Virus record (IMG/VR): IMGVR_UViG_3300009285_002968
Span: 1 to 24,101 of that record
DNA length: 24,101 nt
Strand: one strand, 5' to 3'
Source of the DNA: a virus
The notes beneath the pieces are model-generated. The model ran no database searches. It saw only the letters and a list, made by a program, of their open reading frames with translations, and had not been told where the DNA came from. Positions 2-20,852 of this stretch are shown here, piece by piece (the stretch's first letter is position 1; each line of letters begins with the position of its first letter). The translations under genes and the position numbers were made by a program.

Positions 2-127
2 TCTCGTAAATCAGATTCCTATGTTTGTAAAAAATGTTTAGAATTAAAGAAACTCATTTTAAGACGAAATTTAAAAAATTTCGGCTATGACAAAGAAAGA
101 AGAATTAGAACAAAGAGAAGCGCTTAA
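2..127 (+). CDS. C-terminal end of a possible upstream gene (partial)
   Basis: An open frame enters from the left edge and stops at TAA 125-127, giving 41 residues with no start inside the window. It is basic and contains one CxxC pair (YVCKKC near residue 8), which could be half of a zinc knuckle of the kind seen in small phage DNA-binding proteins or HNH nucleases. It would overlap the terminase start by 41 nt. A terminase small subunit would be expected here, but nothing in these residues proves it. The other two forward frames are closed early in this stretch, which slightly favours this frame. It could also be chance. Confidence 0.3.
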   Translation, partial: SRKSDSYVCKKCLELKKLILRRNLKNFGYDKERRIRTKRSA

Positions 128-1646
128 AGAAGTTCTGCGTCGTTGTCAGGAATCTCCTCTTTTTTTTATTGAACGTGCTTTTAATTTAATTCCGCAGGAA
201 TTAAATTGCCAAAAGGGGCACGATCATAATTTTAAATCTTGTTATTCCCTTTTTGAAAAAGATAAAAATATCACATGGCAACAAGCGCAAGTATTACAAG
301 CTCTAGCTGATGGCAAGGCGGGACGCTCTTCCCGGCGTATTTCAGTTGCCAGTGGCAACAATATAGGGAAATCAACTATAGCGGCATGGGCGACTCTTTG
401 GTTTTTACTTTGCCATGAGCAGGCACAGGTATCGGTAACTTCTCCGTCTCAATCACAGCTCTATGATGTCCTCTGGAAAGAATGTAAGTTGTGGTTGGAT
501 AAGATGCCTCTAGGCCTCCGTGCCTTCTATGACTGGCAACAAACACATATTCGGATGACACCAAGCCCAAATACTTGGTTCGCCCGTGCGGCGACGGCGC
601 GGAAAGAAACACCGGAGGCATTTTCAGGAATTCACGGAGAAAATGTTTTGCTCGTGGCAGAGGAAGCAAGCGCTATTGATGACGCGATTTACAGCACTGC
701 GGAAGGAACGCTTGCTTCAGAGAATAGTCTAGTTCTCCTCATTTCAAACTATACCCGCGCGGAAGGATATTTTCATGATACTTTCACTAAAAATCGCGCC
801 TACTGGAAAAATTTTACATTCTCATCCGCAGAGTCTCCGCTTGTCCCACAGAGCTTTCTTGATATAAAGGCGGCGGAAGGATTGGACTCGGATGCGTATA
901 GGGTGTTCGTCTTGGGACTTCCTCCGCATGCGGAAGGAATGGATGAACAGGGCTTTATTCCACTTATTCAGCAAGGCGACCTGCGAATAGTTCCGGATGA
1001 AGGGAAGATGCCGGAGAACGCAAAGATGGGAGTTGATGTTGGAGGAGAAGGAAAAAACGAAACGGTGTGGGGAATACGAGACCAGTTTAGGGCGCGAATT
1101 ATTGCCAGAGAACCTTTCTCTACGCCTAAGTCGGTGGCGGAAAAAACGATAACTCTCATGTCGCATTATGGAATAATGGACGGCAAAATATATATTGATA
1201 ATTTTGGCGTGGGCGCGAATGTGGCGCAGGAGCTTGCGCTATCCCCTAAGCGCCTTAGGGTTCAGGCAGTAAATGTTGGGCAGGAGGCGATGGATAAGAA
1301 AAGCTATATAAATCTTCGGGCGGAGGCATATATGCGTTTCCGCAATTGGTTGCGCTCAGGAGGGGAACTTATGCGAAATGAAGATTGGAAACAGTTACTC
1401 TCTATTCGCTACAAGGTGGAGACTTCGGGTAAATATAGGATAATGTCGAAGCTGGAAATGGCTAAAAGAGGGATAAAGTCACCTGATGCGGGGGATGCCT
1501 TGATGCTTACATTTCTTGACCCGGAAGGGTCCCGCCGCTTTGGGCTTCCGTTATCGGACGCGGAGAAGGAAGATAGGATATTTAAAGAGCACATGCGATT
1601 AAAGAAATTATCCACTTTTAATAAACCGTCATTTCTGCGAAGATAG
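87..1646 (+). CDS. terL: Terminase large subunit (packaging ATPase/nuclease)
   Basis: This is the motor protein that docks on the portal, pumps DNA into the prohead with ATP and cuts the concatemer. The 519 residues have the usual two-domain layout. The N-terminal ATPase has a Walker A-like loop at about 89-97 (SGNNIGKST) and a Walker B strand at about 186-194 (NVLLVAEEAS, acidic pair at the end). The C-terminal RNase H-like nuclease has acidic motifs at D317 (MGVDVGG), D371 (YIDNFG) and D467/D470 (SPDAGDAL), the expected metal-binding set. Length is normal for the family. The start at 87 is the only reasonable one: an in-frame stop lies at 72-74 and the next Met is at residue 140. There is no clear ribosome binding site (aatttcggct precedes the ATG). 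The portal is not adjacent; it lies about 17 kb downstream. Confidence 0.96.
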   Translation: MTKKEELEQREALKEVLRRCQESPLFFIERAFNLIPQELNCQKGHDHNFKSCYSLFEKDKNITWQQAQVLQALADGKAGRSSRRISVASGNNIGKSTIAAWATLWFLLCHEQAQVSVTSPSQSQLYDVLWKECKLWLDKMPLGLRAFYDWQQTHIRMTPSPNTWFARAATARKETPEAFSGIHGENVLLVAEEASAIDDAIYSTAEGTLASENSLVLLISNYTRAEGYFHDTFTKNRAYWKNFTFSSAESPLVPQSFLDIKAAEGLDSDAYRVFVLGLPPHAEGMDEQGFIPLIQQGDLRIVPDEGKMPENAKMGVDVGGEGKNETVWGIRDQFRARIIAREPFSTPKSVAEKTITLMSHYGIMDGKIYIDNFGVGANVAQELALSPKRLRVQAVNVGQEAMDKKSYINLRAEAYMRFRNWLRSGGELMRNEDWKQLLSIRYKVETSGKYRIMSKLEMAKRGIKSPDAGDALMLTFLDPEGSRRFGLPLSDAEKEDRIFKEHMRLKKLSTFNKPSFLRR

Positions 1647-1814: not shown

Positions 1815-2039
1815 ATGAAAGAATCACCAATTATTCTTACTCCCGAACAGAAAACTGAATTTTTAAAAAAGAAACAGAAGGAGTTTATGAACTATGTCCA
1901 GAAGGCTGAAGCAGTTACGGGTATGGGTATTCGTCCAGTTGTCGAATATACGCCGTTTGGGGTAATCCCTAAAATAGTTATTGTGCCATTAGAAAAAAAA
2001 GATGACACTAAAAGCCCTCCGAAATCAAGCGATAATTAG
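1815..2039 (+). CDS. Hypothetical protein, 74 aa
   Basis: A short, lysine-rich protein. A helical, charged first half (EQKTEFLKKKQKEF) is followed by a stretch with beta character around residues 40-58 (PVVEYTPFGVIPKIVIVPLE) and a hydrophilic tail. It starts 3 nt after the preceding small frame and its last 38 nt overlap the co-chaperonin start in another frame, as in a tightly coupled operon. No ribosome binding site is visible. The position between terminase and capsid genes suggests a small assembly or structural accessory protein, but I do not recognise the family. Confidence 0.7.
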   Translation: MKESPIILTPEQKTEFLKKKQKEFMNYVQKAEAVTGMGIRPVVEYTPFGVIPKIVIVPLEKKDDTKSPPKSSDN

Positions 2040-2313
2040 TTACGAAGAGCCGGAAGATTACGCGGAGGGGAAAAGCGGAATAACGCTTCCTTCGCAGGTT
2101 ATGCTTAGGCGTTTTTTAAGAGGCCGCAGCCAAAAAGTTCTTGATAATCCGCCGGATATTGTTCGGTTGGGAACGGTTGTTTCTTCGGAAGCAATCCCTA
2201 CAGGAACAAGAATTTACTTTAATAAACATGACGGGCGCGAATTTAAGCACGAAGATAAAATATATTACGCAATTCCTGAGAAATGGATATTAGGATATGA
2301 GTTATCCACTTAG
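2002..2313 (+). CDS. GroES-like co-chaperonin (Cpn10 fold)
   Basis: The 103 residues follow the layout of GroES. A first strand (LKALRNQAIISYEEPE) is followed by a flexible acidic/Gly-rich loop at about 18-32 (YAEGKSGITLPSQ) that matches the GroES mobile loop, including a hydrophobic triplet I-T-L at 27-29 in the place of the I-V-L that contacts GroEL. The core follows: RLGTVVSSEAIPTGTRIYF, a G-D-R-E turn near 77-80, and KIYYAIPEKWILGYE. Known phage relatives such as T4 gp31 replace host GroES on GroEL so that the capsid protein can fold. The capsid gene lies 1.5 kb downstream, which fits that role. The start overlaps the previous gene by 38 nt; the region before position 2002 carries only an A-run, not a Shine-Dalgarno. 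The residue evidence is good but distant; specific action on the capsid protein is inference. Confidence 0.78.
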   Translation: MTLKALRNQAIISYEEPEDYAEGKSGITLPSQVMLRRFLRGRSQKVLDNPPDIVRLGTVVSSEAIPTGTRIYFNKHDGREFKHEDKIYYAIPEKWILGYELST

Positions 2314-2390: not shown

Positions 2391-2428
2391 AAGCCAAGCT
2401 ACTGACGTGTTCAAAGTTTGGCTTTTTT
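2391..2428 (+). terminator. Probable Rho-independent terminator
   Basis: AAGCCAA at 2391-2397 pairs with TTGGCTT at 2418-2424, and ACT 2400-2402 can extend the stem with AGT 2415-2417, leaving a small bulge. The second arm runs into a six-T tract (2423-2428). It follows the co-chaperonin gene and would separate the terminase/co-chaperonin unit from the capsid unit. It overlaps the GTG start that the longest reading of the next gene would use. Confidence 0.5.
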
Positions 2429-2445
2429 CATGGACGACGAGGCTG

Positions 2446-2778
2446 ATGCTGAAAATGGTTGACTTGCCTCCGGTGGAAGAAAGGGAACAGAGGATGGATG
2501 ACTGGCTTGCGGGAGCGTGGATGACTCCGGGATTTAGAAGCTATGTCGCTTACCGGAAAGAAGAATTGAAAAAAGAGTTGGCTTCAGGGATTGGGGGGCA
2601 TCCGGAACCGAGAGTGGCGTATCTTATCCGCTTCGGACAGCAGTATGAAGCACTCGCGCTAGGCACATTTGCCAAGCTGGCGTGGGAGCGTAAAGAGAGG
2701 CAAAAGAGAATTTCGCTGGCAAAGGAACAACCTTTGCCCACGAGAGAACGGCAACAGGGACCCCAGCCTGTTAAGTAG
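2446..2778 (+). CDS. Hypothetical charged helical protein
   Basis: About 110 residues with many Glu, Lys and Arg and a helical look (EEREQRMDDWLAGAW, YRKEELKKELA, AKLAWERKERQKR), ending in a Pro/Gln-rich tail. The frame is open back to a GTG at 2407 (123 aa), but that start lies inside a likely terminator hairpin. The ATG at 2446 or the one at 2455 is therefore preferred; a GAGG at 2439-2442 is badly spaced for either. It sits directly upstream of the scaffold-like gene. It could be a head-assembly accessory protein; I do not recognise the family. Confidence 0.65.
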   Translation: MLKMVDLPPVEEREQRMDDWLAGAWMTPGFRSYVAYRKEELKKELASGIGGHPEPRVAYLIRFGQQYEALALGTFAKLAWERKERQKRISLAKEQPLPTRERQQGPQPVK

Positions 2779-2809
2779 GGAGAATTACTGGCTTACCCAC
2801 CACGAGAAA

Positions 2810-3364
2810 ATGGAGAATGAAACAAACCCGGAAGTCATACCGGCGATACCAAACGAAGACGCAAGCGGAGATCCGTTAGATAAATTATTTAGCGAGAGTC
2901 CGGAGAAGGTCTTAGAGGAAGCGAAAAAATTTCGTGGGATAGCCCATCGTTTAGGCGAGAAGCCGCCCAAAGAAATTATCAAGGAAGTCCCTGTGATTGT
3001 GGAGAAACCAAAAGAATCTCCATATCTCACTAAAGAGGATTTTTATCGCTCGAACACTAAGAAGGCAAGGGTTTTGCTCGACCAGGAGGTTCAGGACAAC
3101 TTCGATGAGATTGCAAAACTTGCAGTTTCCAGAAGGGGTCAGGAAACTCCGGAAGATATAGCGGAAGATTATAAAGACGCATTCGTCGTCTGGAAATTCC
3201 GCAAAGGAGACTCGAAAGAGAATCCCGCGGCAGACCTCGCTACGACAGGTGTTCGTTCTCCGTCCGGAGGTGCTCCGAAAGAAGCGCCGAAGAAGGAAGA
3301 GGAAGACCCTCGTTTCCGAATACCAACTCCACCTACGGAGTGGTATCCTAAACCCTCAAAATAG
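2810..3364 (+). CDS. Probable capsid scaffolding/assembly protein
   Basis: The 184 residues are strongly hydrophilic and acidic, with a Glu-rich N-terminal half (SESPEKVLEEAKKF), a Pro/Lys linker (about 52-70, KEIIKEVPVIVEKPKESPY), a helical middle and a disordered Gly/Pro/Glu tail ending in PTPPTEWYPKPSK. Scaffolding proteins of tailed phages look like this and are encoded just before the major capsid gene, as here. The frame is open back to 2669 but that extension lies over the previous gene and has shadow-like composition; ATG 2810 (MENETNPE) is the natural start. No protease or conserved motif is seen, so the role rests on position and composition. Confidence 0.6.
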   Translation: MENETNPEVIPAIPNEDASGDPLDKLFSESPEKVLEEAKKFRGIAHRLGEKPPKEIIKEVPVIVEKPKESPYLTKEDFYRSNTKKARVLLDQEVQDNFDEIAKLAVSRRGQETPEDIAEDYKDAFVVWKFRKGDSKENPAADLATTGVRSPSGGAPKEAPKKEEEDPRFRIPTPPTEWYPKPSK

Positions 3365-3412: not shown

Positions 3413-3832
3413 ATGCCATTTTTACCTTATAATTTCGATGAAGGAAGGGTTGTTTTGTTGCAAGTCGCAGCTACTACTTTCACAAAAGGCGATGCTTGCG
3501 TGCATGATGGCTCGGGGCAGATGGTCAAAGCTACAGCGGGAAATGGAGCGGGATTAATGTATGTTATTGCTGAAACCGTTTCAACAACCGCGACTGCCGG
3601 AGACCTTCACGCTTTTTGGGATGCGGGTCCAAGTATGGAGTTCGTTGCAAATACTACGGCAGATCCTACTCAAGCGCAGTGCGGAACTTTTGTTGACCTT
3701 GTGACTAACGCGGGGACATTGGACACGGCAGCTTCAACTGACGATCTTTTCTTTGTATCGAGAATTGACGGAGCGCTTGCTGACAGAAAAGTGATTGGTC
3801 ACTTTACTCCTTACGCTCCAGCCGTTGAATAA
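3413..3832 (+). CDS. Probable capsid decoration/stabilisation protein
   Basis: The 139 residues are beta-rich and lack charged helices. The N-terminal half contains a KGDACVHDGSGQMVKATAG stretch, the pattern of small beta-barrel proteins (DUF2190-like, lambda gpD-like) that sit on the capsid surface, and it ends in an acidic domain with VSRIDGALADRKVIGHF. The gene lies 30 nt before the major capsid gene, the classic place for a decoration protein. There is no Shine-Dalgarno; the start is preceded by an AT-rich leader that resembles the leader of the capsid gene. A head-stabilising role is likely, but family membership is by pattern only. Confidence 0.68.
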   Translation: MPFLPYNFDEGRVVLLQVAATTFTKGDACVHDGSGQMVKATAGNGAGLMYVIAETVSTTATAGDLHAFWDAGPSMEFVANTTADPTQAQCGTFVDLVTNAGTLDTAASTDDLFFVSRIDGALADRKVIGHFTPYAPAVE

Positions 3833-3862: not shown

Positions 3863-4846
3863 ATGCCATTAACTACTACAGATTATCCCAAACTCACCCA
3901 GAAACTGAACGAGGTTTTCAATGAATCAGCCTCGTCTGCTATGGAGGAGTGGATTGGGAGACAAATCTTTGATGTCATTGACACAGACTGGAAAATCTAT
4001 GACTACCTTTCATTGCATGGGGTAGGTGGATTTGCCAGGGTTGCTGAAGGTGGAGAGTTGCCGACTGTATCTTCCGTTGAGGGAGATTCGGCTGCTTGGA
4101 CACAGAAACGCTACGGGGACAAAATCTCTGTCACGAAAGATATGAGAATGTTCGACCGCTACGATCAGATGACGGAGGCGGTGTCTTCCGGCGTTGATGA
4201 AGCGTTTCACCTCGTTGACCAGTCAATGGCTGACGTTCTTACGAACGGTTTTAGCGGAACAACTTATACGGATGTATTCGGCGACACCGTTGCTAATACT
4301 GCGGTTGATGGGGTTGTTCTCTTCTCGGCTTCACACACAAATAACCTCAATTCGACAACTTACAGGAACTTGATTAGAAATGCCGCAGGGACGGCGAACC
4401 CGGCTCTCGATAGAGACCCGATTGTAAAGGCTCGCTCGGACGCGCGGACATTCAAAGATCCGAACGGTATCAACAGGCCGACAATGCTCGATACTCTCAT
4501 TGTATCAGCGGCGAATGAGGACTTGGCCGAAAGGCTAGTTTACTCGCAAGGCGTTGCAGGAACTCCGAACGTGGACATCAACCCAATTAAGGGCAAGATT
4601 AAAAATATAATCGTTTGGTCTAAATTGGACACTCGTTCAGATGGAACAAATACTTCTGCTTATTGGTTTATGTCTGATTCAAGAAAAGTAAAGAAATCTT
4701 TGAAAGCTCCATTTGCCCAGAAACCAAAAATGCAGGCGGCCGAACAGGTTACTGAAACCCAAAACTGGCTTTATCCGATTGACGCTTACTACGTTATTGG
4801 GATTGGTTACGTTCCTTTTGTCTGGGGTTCGACAGGAGCTAACTAA
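3863..4846 (+). CDS. Major capsid protein (HK97 fold, Mu gpT-like)
   Basis: The 327 residues form the shell subunit. Recognisable features in order are: an N-terminal helical arm with EEWIGRQIFDVIDTDW; a GELPTVSSVEGDSAAWTQKR stretch leading to DKISVTKDMRMFDRYDQM, similar to the E-loop/spine region; VVLFSASHTNNLNSTTYRNL, which recalls the LFS-x-H-N element of Mu gpT-type capsid proteins; PTMLDTLIVSAANEDLAERL; and a C-terminal WLYPIDAYYVIGIGYVPFVWG like the A-domain end. No protease domain is fused, and the length suits a mature-size subunit with separate scaffold. It follows the decoration-like gene and, further upstream, the scaffold-like gene. The start is the first ATG after an AT-rich leader. 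Confidence 0.9.
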   Translation: MPLTTTDYPKLTQKLNEVFNESASSAMEEWIGRQIFDVIDTDWKIYDYLSLHGVGGFARVAEGGELPTVSSVEGDSAAWTQKRYGDKISVTKDMRMFDRYDQMTEAVSSGVDEAFHLVDQSMADVLTNGFSGTTYTDVFGDTVANTAVDGVVLFSASHTNNLNSTTYRNLIRNAAGTANPALDRDPIVKARSDARTFKDPNGINRPTMLDTLIVSAANEDLAERLVYSQGVAGTPNVDINPIKGKIKNIIVWSKLDTRSDGTNTSAYWFMSDSRKVKKSLKAPFAQKPKMQAAEQVTETQNWLYPIDAYYVIGIGYVPFVWGSTGAN

Positions 4847-6314: not shown

Positions 6315-7805
6315 GTGATACCAATACTTCGGCATCAAAACAGAGTCTTATCCATAGACAACTCCCCAATCGTTGCTAATGCGGTTGGAGAAACTTATTT
6401 GACTGCCGAAGTATCTGCCTCAACGCTAACAGTAAAAAGCATAACTGGTTTTGGAATAAATCAGATTCTTCTCATTGGAGAATTGGGAACGGAGAACGCG
6501 GAGATTGTTTTGACTCATGCTTCAACAGCGCCTTCTGGGACAACAATTACGCTTTCAGCTTCTCTTGGACGCACGCATTATGTTGGGGAGAAAGTTAGGA
6601 TAATTCTCTTTAACCAATTTGAGTTAAGTCGCGCTCCAACGGCTGCGGGGACAAAAACTGTTCTTGTTGTCTCTGGCGGGATGCCTCCCTCTGGACTCGG
6701 CACGGGATTGATAGCCATTGATCCGGGGAAAGTGATTCAGTCTTACGAAGATGTTGAATTTACCACGGGTTATTATTTTGCCCGCTATAAGCATTCTGTA
6801 GAAACAACTTTTGGAGGATATACCGATGCTCTTATTTACGGAGGTTGGGCGAAAGATACTGTTCAATACATGATTGACGGCGCGCTTCGGAGAATTGGGA
6901 GAACTTTATCTGAATTATTTACGGAAGATGACGCGTTCAGGGAAATTAATGAATGTTTAAGATTCATTAAAGGAAAACAAGTTAGGTGGCCGGAACATTC
7001 AAGTTTCAATTATGTAGCTGGGCAAACTTCACGCGGAACCCATATTGTTGCTATGCCGACGGACGCATACGACCTTGAAACAAATAGGTCTATTCAGGCG
7101 GTGCGCGTAGGAAATAATCCGACTAAATTAATCTATCTTGATTCAGATGCCTTTGACGCGCAGATGGACGATACGGTTTATACGCAGGTTACAACGCAGG
7201 CGGTAGCCACCGATACAACGTTAGCAATAGATAATTCGTATGACTTTGAGGATTCCGGCACTGTGCACGTTTACGTATCCGGAACAAAGTATTCCATTAC
7301 ATACACCGGGGTTACCCGTTCTGCAAGCGCCGGAGTCCTCACGGGCATACCAGCTTCAGGGGACGGCTCGATTACAGTTACGATTGCTGTGGATGTTTAT
7401 GTTTGGCAGAATGAAACGGAAGGAATCCCGAAATATTTTACAGTGCGCAATAGTAATATAGAATTTTGGCCTCTAGCCGATGCTACAGAAGACAATCAGA
7501 ATATTTTTCTTGATTACGATAAAGTTGCGACTGCAATAGACAGTGATGGCGATACTATAGACTTTCACCGATATGATATGGTTCTTGACTACCTAACTTG
7601 GAAGATGTGGACGATTTTAAAAAATGATGGAATTTTGGATATGAATAATAATTATTACATTCAATTTAAGGAAAAATTGAATGATTCAATCCGCACTTCG
7701 CGCTCTGGGCAGGTATTTCCGTGGAGACCGAAAATTAATAGGATAAATTACCGAGGAGGGACAGGGTCGTATATTAGCTCTAGCGATAGAAGTGGAAGCA
7801 ACTAA
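6315..7805 (+). CDS. Head-tail adaptor-like virion protein with beta domains
   Basis: The 496 residues start at a GTG that follows the previous stop directly. The first 130 or so form beta-sandwich material (STLTVKSITGFGINQILLIG, GRTHYVGEKVRI). A helical segment at about 185-225 (DGALRRIGRTLSELF, AFREINECLRFIKGKQVRWP) and a C-terminal helical region (DYLTWKMWTILKNDGILD, YYIQFKEKLNDSI) resemble the adaptor proteins that ring the portal in short-tailed phages (T7 gp11/P22 gp4 type). Between them sits another beta insert with YSITYTGVTRSASAGVLTG. The next gene encodes a propeller/nozzle-like protein, the same order as adaptor and nozzle in podoviruses. The adaptor assignment rests on pattern and order; a structure comparison is the missing test. 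Confidence 0.6.
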   Translation: MIPILRHQNRVLSIDNSPIVANAVGETYLTAEVSASTLTVKSITGFGINQILLIGELGTENAEIVLTHASTAPSGTTITLSASLGRTHYVGEKVRIILFNQFELSRAPTAAGTKTVLVVSGGMPPSGLGTGLIAIDPGKVIQSYEDVEFTTGYYFARYKHSVETTFGGYTDALIYGGWAKDTVQYMIDGALRRIGRTLSELFTEDDAFREINECLRFIKGKQVRWPEHSSFNYVAGQTSRGTHIVAMPTDAYDLETNRSIQAVRVGNNPTKLIYLDSDAFDAQMDDTVYTQVTTQAVATDTTLAIDNSYDFEDSGTVHVYVSGTKYSITYTGVTRSASAGVLTGIPASGDGSITVTIAVDVYVWQNETEGIPKYFTVRNSNIEFWPLADATEDNQNIFLDYDKVATAIDSDGDTIDFHRYDMVLDYLTWKMWTILKNDGILDMNNNYYIQFKEKLNDSIRTSRSGQVFPWRPKINRINYRGGTGSYISSSDRSGSN

Positions 7806-13477: not shown

Positions 13478-14200
13478 ATGAAATTTCAAAAACAACAAAC
13501 TCCATGGAATAAAGGTAAAAAACTTCATTACCCCATTTGGAATAAAGGGAAGAAAGGTATTCATCTTTCTCCCGATACAGAATTTAAAAAAGGGTCTCGG
13601 GGTTTTACCGGAAAACATTCTGAAGAATCTAAATTAAAAATGAGTTTAGCTTCAAAAGGAAGGATAATGTCAGACGAATCTCGTAAAAAAATAAGTTTAG
13701 CGTTAAAGGGCAAAACGCCAAAGAATATTGTAGCAGGTTGGAATAAAGGAATGAAAATGCCACCTATGTCTGAAGAGACAAGACTAAAATATAGTCTTGT
13801 TCAGAAAGAGAGGGTAAAATTGGGATTAAATAATCTCCTTAATGGGGATGGTGCAAAAGGATGGAATAAGGGGATTAAGTTACCGCAAATTACCGGAGAT
13901 AAACATTGGAATTGGCAAGGTGGTATTTCTCCTGAACGACAAAAATATATGAGAACACTTGAATATAAAAGCTGGAGAGATGATATTTTCAAAAAAAATG
14001 ATTATAGTTGTCAGTTTTGCAAAAAGCGTGGGGAGAGAATTGAAGCTGATCACATTAAACCTTTTGCATGGTTCTCTGATTTACGTTTTGACGTTTCTAA
14101 TGGCCAAACGCTTTGTGTTGATTGTCATAAATGGAAAACGAGTATGGATATGAAAATTTTCACAGGGCGTGTTCCAGAATTAAATATTATTTATCAATAA
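13478..14200 (+). CDS. HNH homing endonuclease with NUMOD3-type motifs
   Basis: The 240-residue protein is a free-standing homing nuclease. It carries four WNKG motifs (at 10, 21, 88 and 129) and NUMOD3-like DNA-binding repeats at about 44-84 (HSEESKLKMSLASKG, SDESRKKISLALKGK). The C-terminal HNH domain has CQFC (178-181), the catalytic D191-H192 (EADHIKPF), N208 and CVDC-H (213-217), that is the HNH core with a zinc ribbon. Codons are more AT-rich than in the neighbours. The gene sits in the 734-nt interval between two structurally similar virion genes without breaking either one, the usual behaviour of free-standing homing genes, which cut near-identical sites lacking the insertion. Confidence 0.93.
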   Translation: MKFQKQQTPWNKGKKLHYPIWNKGKKGIHLSPDTEFKKGSRGFTGKHSEESKLKMSLASKGRIMSDESRKKISLALKGKTPKNIVAGWNKGMKMPPMSEETRLKYSLVQKERVKLGLNNLLNGDGAKGWNKGIKLPQITGDKHWNWQGGISPERQKYMRTLEYKSWRDDIFKKNDYSCQFCKKRGERIEADHIKPFAWFSDLRFDVSNGQTLCVDCHKWKTSMDMKIFTGRVPELNIIYQ

Positions 14201-18183: not shown

Positions 18184-18930
18184 ATGGCTTATAAAGATAA
18201 GGAAAGGGAAAAAGAGTATCAAAGAGAATATTATTTGAAGAATAAAAATAAACTTTTGATACAAAATAAAAAATATTATCTTGAAAATAAAGAGAAAATT
18301 TTAAAGTGTAATAAAAATTATTATCTTGAAAATAAAGATAAAATAAAAGTAAAACGTGTAGGTTATCATAAAGAATATTACAAAAATAATTTAGAAAAAA
18401 TAGAAAAATACCGTTTAGAGCATAAAGAAAAAAATAAAGAATATCAAAAAGTATATATATTAGAAAACAAAGATAAGATCGCAGAGTATCGTTCTAAAAA
18501 TAGAGATAAAATTTTAGAAATACAAAAAAATTGGCGTATTAAAAATAAAGAAGAAATAAGGAAATATGATAGAAAGTGGAGAGGCGAAAGATACATTTCT
18601 GATATTGGATTTAAGCTTCGTTCTGTTTTAAGGAGTTCTGTGCGAGATATAATTAAAAGAAATCAAAAATCAGGTTCTGCTATACGCGATCTTGGTTGTT
18701 CTATTGATGAACTCAAATTTTACATCGAAGGGCAATTCCAACAGGGGATGACATGGGATAACTGGGGAGTGATAGGCACCGGCAAAAAGTGGAATATAGA
18801 TCATAAGATACCGTTAGCTTTCTTTGACCTTACTGATAGAAAACAATTTCTCGTTGCGTGTCATTACACTAACTTACAACCTCTCTGGGCATTAGAAAAT
18901 ATTAGAAAAAGTAATAAAATTTTAATATGA
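18184..18930 (+). CDS. HNH/His-Me finger endonuclease with coiled repeats
   Basis: The 248 residues have a C-terminal nuclease: GCSIDELKFYIEGQF, then WNIDHKIPLAFF with D206-H207, followed by HYTNLQPLWALENIRKSNK with N230 and N239, the usual His-Me finger spacing. The first 135 residues are an unusual lysine/asparagine/tyrosine-rich array of roughly 15-residue units (YYLENKEKILKCNKN, YYLENKDKIKVKRVG), probably a DNA-contacting helix. The gene is far more AT-rich than its neighbours, preceded by 149 nt without a gene on the + strand, and its TGA stop overlaps the portal start (ATGA). It is likely a second mobile homing-type nuclease placed just before the portal. No zinc cysteines are seen. Confidence 0.85.
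   Translation: MAYKDKEREKEYQREYYLKNKNKLLIQNKKYYLENKEKILKCNKNYYLENKDKIKVKRVGYHKEYYKNNLEKIEKYRLEHKEKNKEYQKVYILENKDKIAEYRSKNRDKILEIQKNWRIKNKEEIRKYDRKWRGERYISDIGFKLRSVLRSSVRDIIKRNQKSGSAIRDLGCSIDELKFYIEGQFQQGMTWDNWGVIGTGKKWNIDHKIPLAFFDLTDRKQFLVACHYTNLQPLWALENIRKSNKILI
18274..18338 (+). repeat. Direct repeat inside the nuclease gene
   Basis: A 20-nt sequence beginning TATTATCTTGAAAAT occurs at 18274-18293 and again at 18319-18338, 45 nt apart, which is one 15-residue repeat unit of the protein. It indicates recent tandem duplication of that unit. Confidence 0.8.
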
Positions 18931-20852
18931 AAACTGAAGAAACATTGCCTCCAACTTATTTACCTACTGTTAAAGAAGCAGAGATAATTTCTGATACTTA
19001 TAAAAAATTAAGGGATATGATGGATTTGAAAATAAAAACCATGCCGCATTTCAGCGGGCCTGAAGGAGATAGAAGTTTTCTCCAATACATAGATGACTCA
19101 GAGAGAATTTTAAATGGGTGGACACCTAGTAGAGAAAGTCAGGGGAGAGATAGTTGGGAATCAAACATTATTGATAACATTACGCGCGTGAAGCTCCGCA
19201 CCATTGTTACCGCGGTCGGGCTTAATGTTCCGGCTATGAAATTCAAAGCTACCAGCGCTAATGGAATTCAATCCTCCCAGCGCTCCGAGATTATGAAGCA
19301 GACTGTCCGACACACCTTCTTACAGGGAAACCCTACAATGCAGGCATTCCTTGAACTCTGGCAGATGATGGCTCACGGAGTTACCTTCGTTTACGACGGC
19401 TATCTTTCAGGAGGAATGAAAAGGAAAGTTGTTACGGGTTTTAATTCAGAGACCGGAGAGGTTGAAACTGAAGAAAAATATGTGAAGGTGGACGGAAGAC
19501 CTTTTAATGCTATTCTTGACCCGCAGGATTTCTTCTGGTGGGACTTTTACAAAAGAGATATTCAAGACCAGCCTCATTTGGCTTGGCTCCAACGCTATAC
19601 GAAATCTGAAGTTGAGCAGGAATTTGGAAAGTTCAAAAATTATAAATACATAAAAAACAAAAAAGAACTTTCCAGCGCTTCACTTGAGCAGGAAACTCTC
19701 CACTTTAAAGCATGGTCGGATAGGCTTGACGACCATGACTACGAAGTTTTCAGATTTTATTCAAAAGAAGATGATGCTTATAGAATTCTTATAAATGGAG
19801 TAATTATATTGGATGCCCCGCTTTTGTGGGGGGATAAGCAAAAATATTATCCATTTGCTAAATCTATTTCTGAACCCTTTGCCAACTCCAACTTCTTCGT
19901 TGGAATAAGTTTTCCTGCTTTGCTTGAAGGCTATCAGATAGAAAAATCTACAACTTTAAATCTTCTTGTTAATAAACTTTATCGCTCGGTTGTTAAGCCA
20001 TATCTAGTCGGACTTGTTAATAAAGATGTTCTCGATATTGAATCTGAAATTATCAGTCAAGATTCGCGAATTTACGTTCCGGATATAGATCAGGTTAAGC
20101 CATGGCCTGCGGAGGGAGTCAATCAATCTGAACTTGCGATGCTCGCCGCAATGGATAGGTCTATTGATCTTCTTTCCGTAGATGTTACTCAACAAGGCCA
20201 ACAGAACAGGAGAAGTGCCACCGCAACCGAAATTAAAATTGCAGACGAGAGAGCGCGTCAGATGAAAGGAATGTTATTTATGTTCTTAGAAGACCTATGG
20301 CTTCAAAAAAATAAATTACGTGTCCGCACTATCCTTACTCAGTATCTTAAAGACAAGGCAAAAAGAGAAAACTACCGTGACAATATAATCACCGTGCCCG
20401 ACGTTACCTTCTCTGACGGGGCAAGGGGAACGCTCGATATTCACGTTGCAAATACCAAGTCAAAAATGCTTTCTATGTCTGAGATTAAAGCTAGAGAGCA
20501 GATAGCGCAGGAGCAGGGACTTCCCTACAAAATAATCTCTATGACAAAAGATTATCTTGACGACTGGGAATACGACTTTCAAGTTGTCACTGAATCTCTT
20601 TACAGCCAAGATCAATTCAAGAAAGGACAGGATTTCCAAGAAGAAATGCAGGTTGTCGCTACGGTCTTCCCAGAATATCTCGCGTCTAATAAAGATAAAT
20701 ACTGGAAAGAGTTTCTTGAAATTAAAGGAAAATCCGCCGATGATTTTAAACCCCCGCCTCCTCCGCAACAACAGGGTATGCCCGGACAAGAAGGAATGGA
20801 GGGCGGTATGCCGGGTCAGAGTTTATTGGGTCTGGGCGCACCAAAACAATGA
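18927..20852 (+). CDS. Portal protein
   Basis: The 641-residue protein forms the dodecameric ring through which DNA enters and leaves the head. It has the features of large podovirus-type portals: an acidic N-terminus, NIIDNITRVKLRTIVTAVGL near 80-100, a membrane-like wing with FLELWQMMAHGVTFVYDGYL, GRPFNAILDPQDFFWWDF near 190-208, a central FPALLEGYQIEKSTTLNLLV near 330-350, and ATATEIKIADERARQMKGML, the long helix near 430 that lines the channel in this family. The tail is disordered, rich in Pro, Gln, Met and Gly. The start overlaps the nuclease stop by 4 nt. In most phages the portal gene follows the terminase; here it is about 17 kb away, after the internal proteins. Confidence 0.85.
   Translation: MKTEETLPPTYLPTVKEAEIISDTYKKLRDMMDLKIKTMPHFSGPEGDRSFLQYIDDSERILNGWTPSRESQGRDSWESNIIDNITRVKLRTIVTAVGLNVPAMKFKATSANGIQSSQRSEIMKQTVRHTFLQGNPTMQAFLELWQMMAHGVTFVYDGYLSGGMKRKVVTGFNSETGEVETEEKYVKVDGRPFNAILDPQDFFWWDFYKRDIQDQPHLAWLQRYTKSEVEQEFGKFKNYKYIKNKKELSSASLEQETLHFKAWSDRLDDHDYEVFRFYSKEDDAYRILINGVIILDAPLLWGDKQKYYPFAKSISEPFANSNFFVGISFPALLEGYQIEKSTTLNLLVNKLYRSVVKPYLVGLVNKDVLDIESEIISQDSRIYVPDIDQVKPWPAEGVNQSELAMLAAMDRSIDLLSVDVTQQGQQNRRSATATEIKIADERARQMKGMLFMFLEDLWLQKNKLRVRTILTQYLKDKAKRENYRDNIITVPDVTFSDGARGTLDIHVANTKSKMLSMSEIKAREQIAQEQGLPYKIISMTKDYLDDWEYDFQVVTESLYSQDQFKKGQDFQEEMQVVATVFPEYLASNKDKYWKEFLEIKGKSADDFKPPPPPQQQGMPGQEGMEGGMPGQSLLGLGAPKQ

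Follow-up and report, generated by a model that had tools for sequence, protein, structure and literature searches.

A divergent GroES-family co-chaperonin in a phage head gene block, in a position occupied by a GroEL-like chaperonin or a portal-like gene in related phages

In the present study, profile searches and structure prediction identify a divergent co-chaperonin of the GroES (Cpn10) family in the head gene block of a phage, analyzed here as a single stretch of DNA of 24,101 nucleotides (the window). We propose, with a probability of about 75%, that this protein is a dedicated lid for host GroEL, comparable to gp31 of phage T4, and that it serves the folding of a head protein, with the major capsid protein (MCP) as the likeliest client. 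Its family and fold, the place of its gene, its shape and its exchange with a GroEL-like chaperonin (Cpn60) in related phages support this reading, and the remainder we infer.

Results

Identification of the co-chaperonin

An open reading frame (ORF) check of the window reproduced exactly the gene boundaries of the preliminary description (Table 1), and the start of the gene overlaps the 3' end of a 74-residue ORF. The product scored 22.5 bits over residues 3-98 against the Pfam model PF00166 (Cpn10), for which the cut-off is 21.1 bits; T4 gp31, used as a yardstick, reached 30.8 bits on the same model, and the cut-off was passed by 7 of the 10 primary family copies. The protein also matched PHROG 3188, "co-chaperonin GroES", at E 1.1e-6. 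Scores on the NCBIfam GroES models were far under the cut-offs (best 18.9 vs 120 bits) and a single-sequence phmmer search of the PDB reached GroES only at E 1.2, indicating that the protein is very divergent. The doubt arising from this divergence was removed with a profile of eight phage homologues, which matched solved Cpn10/GroES chains in the PDB at E 3.8e-19 to 1.8e-5.

The AlphaFold model of the protein (eight sequences, mean pLDDT 80.8) is predicted to contain the GroES-like beta-barrel. Using this model, ranks 1-35 of a Foldseek search were all Cpn10 chains, with T4 gp31 (1g31) at rank 33, and a VIA search returned 16 Cpn10 entries at Z 11.2 to 7.2, followed by barrel-sharing oxidoreductases at Z 6.4 and less. 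Profile and structure searches for the Cpn10 fold had been set beforehand as the test that could refute the assignment to the GroES plan, and both returned Cpn10; together with PF00166 and PHROG 3188, they bear out the assignment. The I-T-L triplet reported for the flexible loop was also found, directly after G26 (G26-I27-T28-L29). Homologues with 19-39% identity and intact frames occupy the same place in independent phages, which rules out a spurious ORF. In 50,697 phage records, no match was obtained by tblastn with the Cpn10, MCP or portal-like protein of the window, and the Cpn10 copy of the related contig G025 likewise matched nothing in the phage records.

Table 1. Position, strand and basis of assignment of features in the window
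Feature	Position	Strand	Basis
Terminase large subunit (terL), upstream border of the slot	87..1646	+	PHROG 2, E 2.3e-28
74-aa ORF between terL and cpn10	1815..2039	+	ORF list
Cpn10/GroES-like co-chaperonin, 103 aa	2002..2313	+	Pfam, PHROG, family profile against PDB, predicted fold
Long mobile loop, residues 15-53	2044..2160	+	Low confidence in model
I27-T28-L29 loop tip	2080..2088	+	Sequence; GroEL contact inferred from GroES
Short turn at the position of the GroES roof hairpin, residues 63-69	2188..2208	+	Model and alignment
Small conserved ORF, family C4, downstream border of the slot	2407..2778	+	Iterated family profiles
Scaffold-like ORF	2669..3364	+	Position alone, no profile match
Head decoration protein	3413..3832	+	PHROG 766, E 3.1e-5
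Major capsid protein (MCP), 327 aa, 36.0 kDa, proposed client	3863..4846	+	PF25209 (Phage_capsid_4), E 5.5e-15
Portal-like protein, displaced downstream	18927..20852	+	Family profile; putative label

Mobile loop and roof

Compared with the GroES of four bacteria, which form the whole bacterial side of the comparison, the window Cpn10 has a longer loop and a reduced roof: 29 residues separate the loop tip from the next strand vs 12-13 in GroES, and the roof segment comprises 6 aligned residues vs 19. The model shows no hairpin between strands 54-62 and 70-74, and the low confidence of the loop is as expected for a flexible segment. The same tendency was observed in all 10 primary phage Cpn10s (tip-to-strand distances of 15-33 residues and roof segments of 6-15, vs 12-13 and 19 in the bacterial proteins), and the second Cpn10 copy of contig G019 is bacterial-like (11 and 20 residues). 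The loop tip varies among the phage proteins (I-T-L, L-Y-L, I-L-R and I-E-L) and its middle residue in the window is polar (T); all 11 distinct phage sequences of the iterated search have a hydrophobic first tip residue, either I or L.

A longer mobile loop and a missing roof hairpin are features of gp31, for which PMC6318259 gives loops of 22 residues vs 16 in GroES, absent roof loops and a chamber that is 8% larger. In plan, the window Cpn10 clearly resembles gp31. Kinship in sequence was not detected: PHROG 931, confirmed as the gp31 family because gp31 matches it at E 3.7e-50, gave no match to the window protein at E 0.1, and was reached by four homologues at E 7.5e-9 to 0.03 (7.5e-9 for L053 and 1.6e-4 for L008). 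Thus, the window Cpn10 is gp31-like in plan and is not classed as gp31.

Gene arrangement

The cpn10 gene starts 355 bp past the end of the terminase gene and lies upstream of the capsid genes, confirming the placement described previously, since terL is identified by PHROG 2 and the MCP by Phage_capsid_4, in the expected order. The 74-residue ORF preceding cpn10 had no match in a Pfam search, and its homologue in locus L009 sits ahead of terL. The scaffold-like ORF probably starts at the ATG at 2810. The label of the portal-like protein derives from SU10_portal matches of two homologues, both under the cut-off. Elsewhere in the window, an HNH/NUMOD3 homing-endonuclease-like gene lies amid the virion genes (13478-14200), and the N-terminal half of a 248-residue ORF (18184-18930), for which a Pfam search gave no match, is made up of near-repeats with many Y, K and N residues.

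The terminase-adjacent slot in related phages

When Cpn10 or terL served as the single query protein, nothing beyond two contigs of the same virus was recovered; these are about 99% identical to the window in DNA over most of the match, without differences in cpn10, and further relatives were reached with the capsid protein as query. Iterated profiles for terL, portal, Cpn10, Cpn60, C4, scaffold-like, decoration and capsid proteins were then applied to all ORFs of the loci, yielding 12 Cpn10 sequences, of which 11 are distinct; the weak Cpn10 of locus L054 (16.6 bits, below the cut-off) was not recovered by this search. In total, 79 loci were examined, after three others (L028, L081 and L105), each a second locus of a contig already represented, had been dropped, and contigs G019 and G025 contribute two loci each. 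Sixty loci, in which one stretch covers both terL and a head gene downstream of it, were counted; L051, L006 and L007, the last two being near-copies of the window, are absent from this table. The other 19 did not qualify, among them L053 of G025 (where the capsid genes are on a different stretch from terL, Cpn10 and portal), L054, L070 and the rearranged L087, L095 and L107.

In all 60 counted loci, the interval between terL and the head genes is occupied by a Cpn10 gene (10 loci), a Cpn60 gene (12 loci) or a portal-like gene (38 loci); this slot is never empty and never contains two of the three. Grouped at 95% capsid identity, these loci represent 9 Cpn10, 10 Cpn60 and 29 portal kinds. The capsid proteins of the portal-type relatives are related to that of the window (41-56% identity). 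Among the Cpn10-type records, the portal-like gene was found 13-17 kb further downstream in the window, G003 and G013, and in G025, outside the 60 loci, terL, Cpn10 and portal genes lie side by side.

Several unusual arrangements were also observed. On the minus strand of G019 (L052), a contig with a 127-base terminal repeat, two Cpn10 genes, one roofless and one GroES-like, are arranged in tandem (317-604 and 580-888), and their products may form a mixed lid. In L087, L095 and L107, which belong to the capsid family, the head block is rearranged, with other genes upstream of C4 and no terL seen on the available stretch. Another phage lineage in the M50B98 genome (L054, G028:C20, 1632-7790) carries, in this order, terL, a weak roofless Cpn10, a Cpn60 and a P22-like portal, and thereby provides another example of chaperonin genes flanked by terL and portal; an intein-like insertion, which bears a LAGLIDADG domain, interrupts this Cpn60 of 839 residues.

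The GroEL-like alternative and its exchange with Cpn10

The Cpn60 of the slot, which belongs to PHROG 5725 ("chaperonin groEL"), is a real chaperonin, as indicated by Pfam scores, one structural model and ATPase-type motifs. All five proteins tested exceeded the PF00118 cut-off, the predicted structure of one matched GroEL/Hsp60-type chains at a Foldseek E of 1e-31, and G35-R36-N37, D47-G48, D82, D409 and G425-G427, which we take to be the ATPase-site motifs of GroEL, are invariant in nine sequences. In L069, the slot Cpn60 is divided between two ORFs, 199 and 265 residues long (6318-7791). Searches of whole records, possibly fragments, detected no Cpn60 in five Cpn10-type records (G003, G013, G017, G019 and G025), and the Cpn10 profile A3 found none in six Cpn60-type records (G007, G008, G011, G012, G014 and G022). 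Therefore, the Cpn10 of these five would need host GroEL, if any GroEL is used.

On a capsid tree of 75 rows, at least three changes between Cpn10 and Cpn60 are required among the chaperonin carriers, and at least two changes between the portal and chaperonin states. A tree of 24 rows, hand-picked after the first tree, again gave three Cpn10/Cpn60 changes, and for these selected rows a single clade was rejected both for the Cpn10 carriers (AU p 3.7e-71) and for the Cpn60 carriers (AU p 5.4e-40). In the same tree, the Cpn10-carrying L009 is nested among Cpn60 carriers with a support of 100/98.

Host

A related prophage with 49% capsid identity was observed on a contig of Candidatus Staskawiczbacteria, which belongs to the Patescibacteria. 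The contig carries genes for queuine tRNA-ribosyltransferase and alanyl-tRNA synthetase and other cellular genes, consistent with an integrated prophage, so that at least one member of the family is lodged in a patescibacterium. With all long ORFs on one strand and tRNAs, the contig was also considered as a misbinned large phage, an explanation rejected on the basis of the cellular genes. For the window phage itself, a patescibacterial host appears plausible from this relative. Among 383 sampled genomes of the class, just two carried the capsid family, namely the starting genome and one with a partial match (E 8.7e-6). Other genome matches are weaker evidence of host, as M50B98 is unclassified and the Lithacetigena match comprises 103 residues on a 3.8-kb contig.

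The preliminary description had raised the possibility that the host is a patescibacterium whose chaperone set is reduced. The Staskawiczbacteria genome with the integrated relative has both groES and groEL, and among 142 sampled genomes of the same class groES is present in 128 and groEL in 130. A reduced chaperone set as the reason for the phage gene was thus rejected for this candidate class.

Discussion

Proposed function and alternatives

Herein, we propose that the window Cpn10 would form a seven-subunit lid that docks on host GroEL via the hydrophobic tip of its long mobile loop. The host cage would thereby become phage-tuned, with a longer-legged and open-roofed lid, as with T4 gp31, and the retuned cage would fold a head protein, the likeliest being the MCP from the same gene block. 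A dedicated role in capsid folding had been suggested previously; the place of the gene and the repeated replacement by a GroEL-like gene fit the folding of a head protein, and the MCP would be the most likely client, because it is encoded in the same block and the exchange partner of Cpn10 is a whole chaperonin. The portal or tail proteins, or other virion proteins, could be the client instead. A capsid protein too large for the cage was considered and rejected, as the MCP, at 36.0 kDa, fits the GroES-capped cage, and therefore the cage-size reason for gp31 does not carry over. Moreover, in the 38 of 60 relatives with neither chaperonin gene in the slot a related capsid protein is still made, so this help is not needed family-wide. 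A broader interpretation, to which we give about even odds, is that the head block contains a "folding-cage slot", filled by either a roofless lid for host GroEL or a self-contained phage GroEL, the two having replaced one another no fewer than three times as answers to a single requirement, the folding of the adjacently encoded head protein; the tandem Cpn10s of G019 would then possibly represent a mixed lid.

Several alternatives were weighed against this function. It is rather unlikely that the co-chaperonin, together with host GroEL, mainly serves clients other than the MCP, such as the portal, the 821- or 887-residue protein or several phage proteins at once. The portal-like protein (73.9 kDa) and two further candidate virion proteins (86-93 kDa) are large, the portal gene has moved off the slot in chaperonin-type phages, as in the window (18927), G003 and G013, so that portal and chaperonin changed together, and the adjoining terL, Cpn10 and portal genes of G025 point in the same direction. 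However, the portal-type relatives make a homologous portal with neither chaperonin gene in the slot, and sizes of 74-93 kDa are at or beyond the capacity of the GroEL cage.

An accidental gene place would be expected if the phage protein competed with host GroES for GroEL in a host takeover, with a general redirection of folding and no special client. GroES genes do occur outside the head genes elsewhere, e.g. in Vibrio phage D71 by annotation, T4 gene 31 adjoins rIII outside the head block, and gp31 is able to substitute for GroES on host proteins (PMC6318259). Nevertheless, an identical slot in 10 of 10 Cpn10-type loci, common to Cpn60, is hard to explain by accident, and we consider this alternative improbable. 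Least probable, with a very small chance, is that the protein is a relic with a Cpn10-like barrel, no longer binds GroEL and now has a structural or assembly role in the virion. The great divergence, the variable loop tip and the lost roof are compatible with such a relic, whereas the retention of I or L at the first tip position in every distinct phage sequence is not readily so, and the exchange with a chaperonin that keeps ATPase-type motifs argues for a chaperone function of Cpn10.

These results suggest that the phages customize the folding cage for head building. With the two genes found in a single slot on closely related capsids, clients of one kind can meet a lid acting with host GroEL, a phage GroEL or neither, which makes it directly testable why some phages bring their own GroES and others their own GroEL. 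In addition, the loss of the roof and the lengthening of the loop alongside a 36-kDa capsid protein call into question size as the sole reason for these changes.

Comparison with known systems

The earlier statement that co-chaperonins are known in only some phages, usually outside the structural operon, was too narrow: PHROG 3188, which the window protein matches, is a family of phage co-chaperonins, and head- or tail-proximal examples exist. HTVC023P-type pelagiphages have a co-chaperonin among their core genes (PMC9599517), and ORF19 of siphovirus B8b is a GroES within the structural genes (PMC4294664); in Xanthomonas phage PBR31, GroES is annotated two genes ahead of terL-portal-scaffold-MCP. 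Phage GroES near head genes is thus already known, and the swappable slot is the newer part. We found no description of a terminase-adjacent slot with Cpn10, Cpn60 and portal replacement in the open-licence literature searched, a scope that does not include Marine et al. 2017 on virioplankton chaperonins. Unlike the window phage, PBR31, B8b and the HTVC023P type belong to other capsid lineages (tblastn, 50,697 records), and no swap with Cpn60 was seen in the records examined.

The slot Cpn60 is up to about 25% alike to known phage GroELs (EL gp146, OBP gp246, AR9 gp228 and those of Cellulophaga, Flavobacterium and Vibrio phages), and the EL, OBP and AR9 chaperonins are reported to be active without a co-chaperonin (PMC9598537). 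The gene positions differ: groEL lies amid replication or metabolism genes in phi38:1 and immuto and about ten small genes before terL in phi14:2, whereas the slot Cpn60 directly follows terL. The genomes of these three phages are 72-160 kb in length, vs possibly incomplete contigs of at most 32 kb for the slot Cpn60.

With bacterial GroES, the window Cpn10 shares the fold, length, loop tip and family profile; it differs in the loop and roof lengths given above and in that its gene does not adjoin groEL and lies in a phage head block. T4 gp31, which together with RB49 CocO (PMC9598537) is also among the closest known systems, is a phage lid for host GroEL, as the window protein would be, with a long loop and no roof (PMC6318259). 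The folds agree (VIA Z 8.8 to 2cgt_O, rmsd 1.7 over 63 residues; Z 8.4 to 1g31_A, rmsd 4.7 over 87 residues). However, the T4 capsid protein gp23, which requires gp31 for folding according to that source, is about 56 kDa vs 36 kDa for the window MCP, and gene 31 adjoins rIII, outside the head block, whereas the cpn10 of the window lies inside it.
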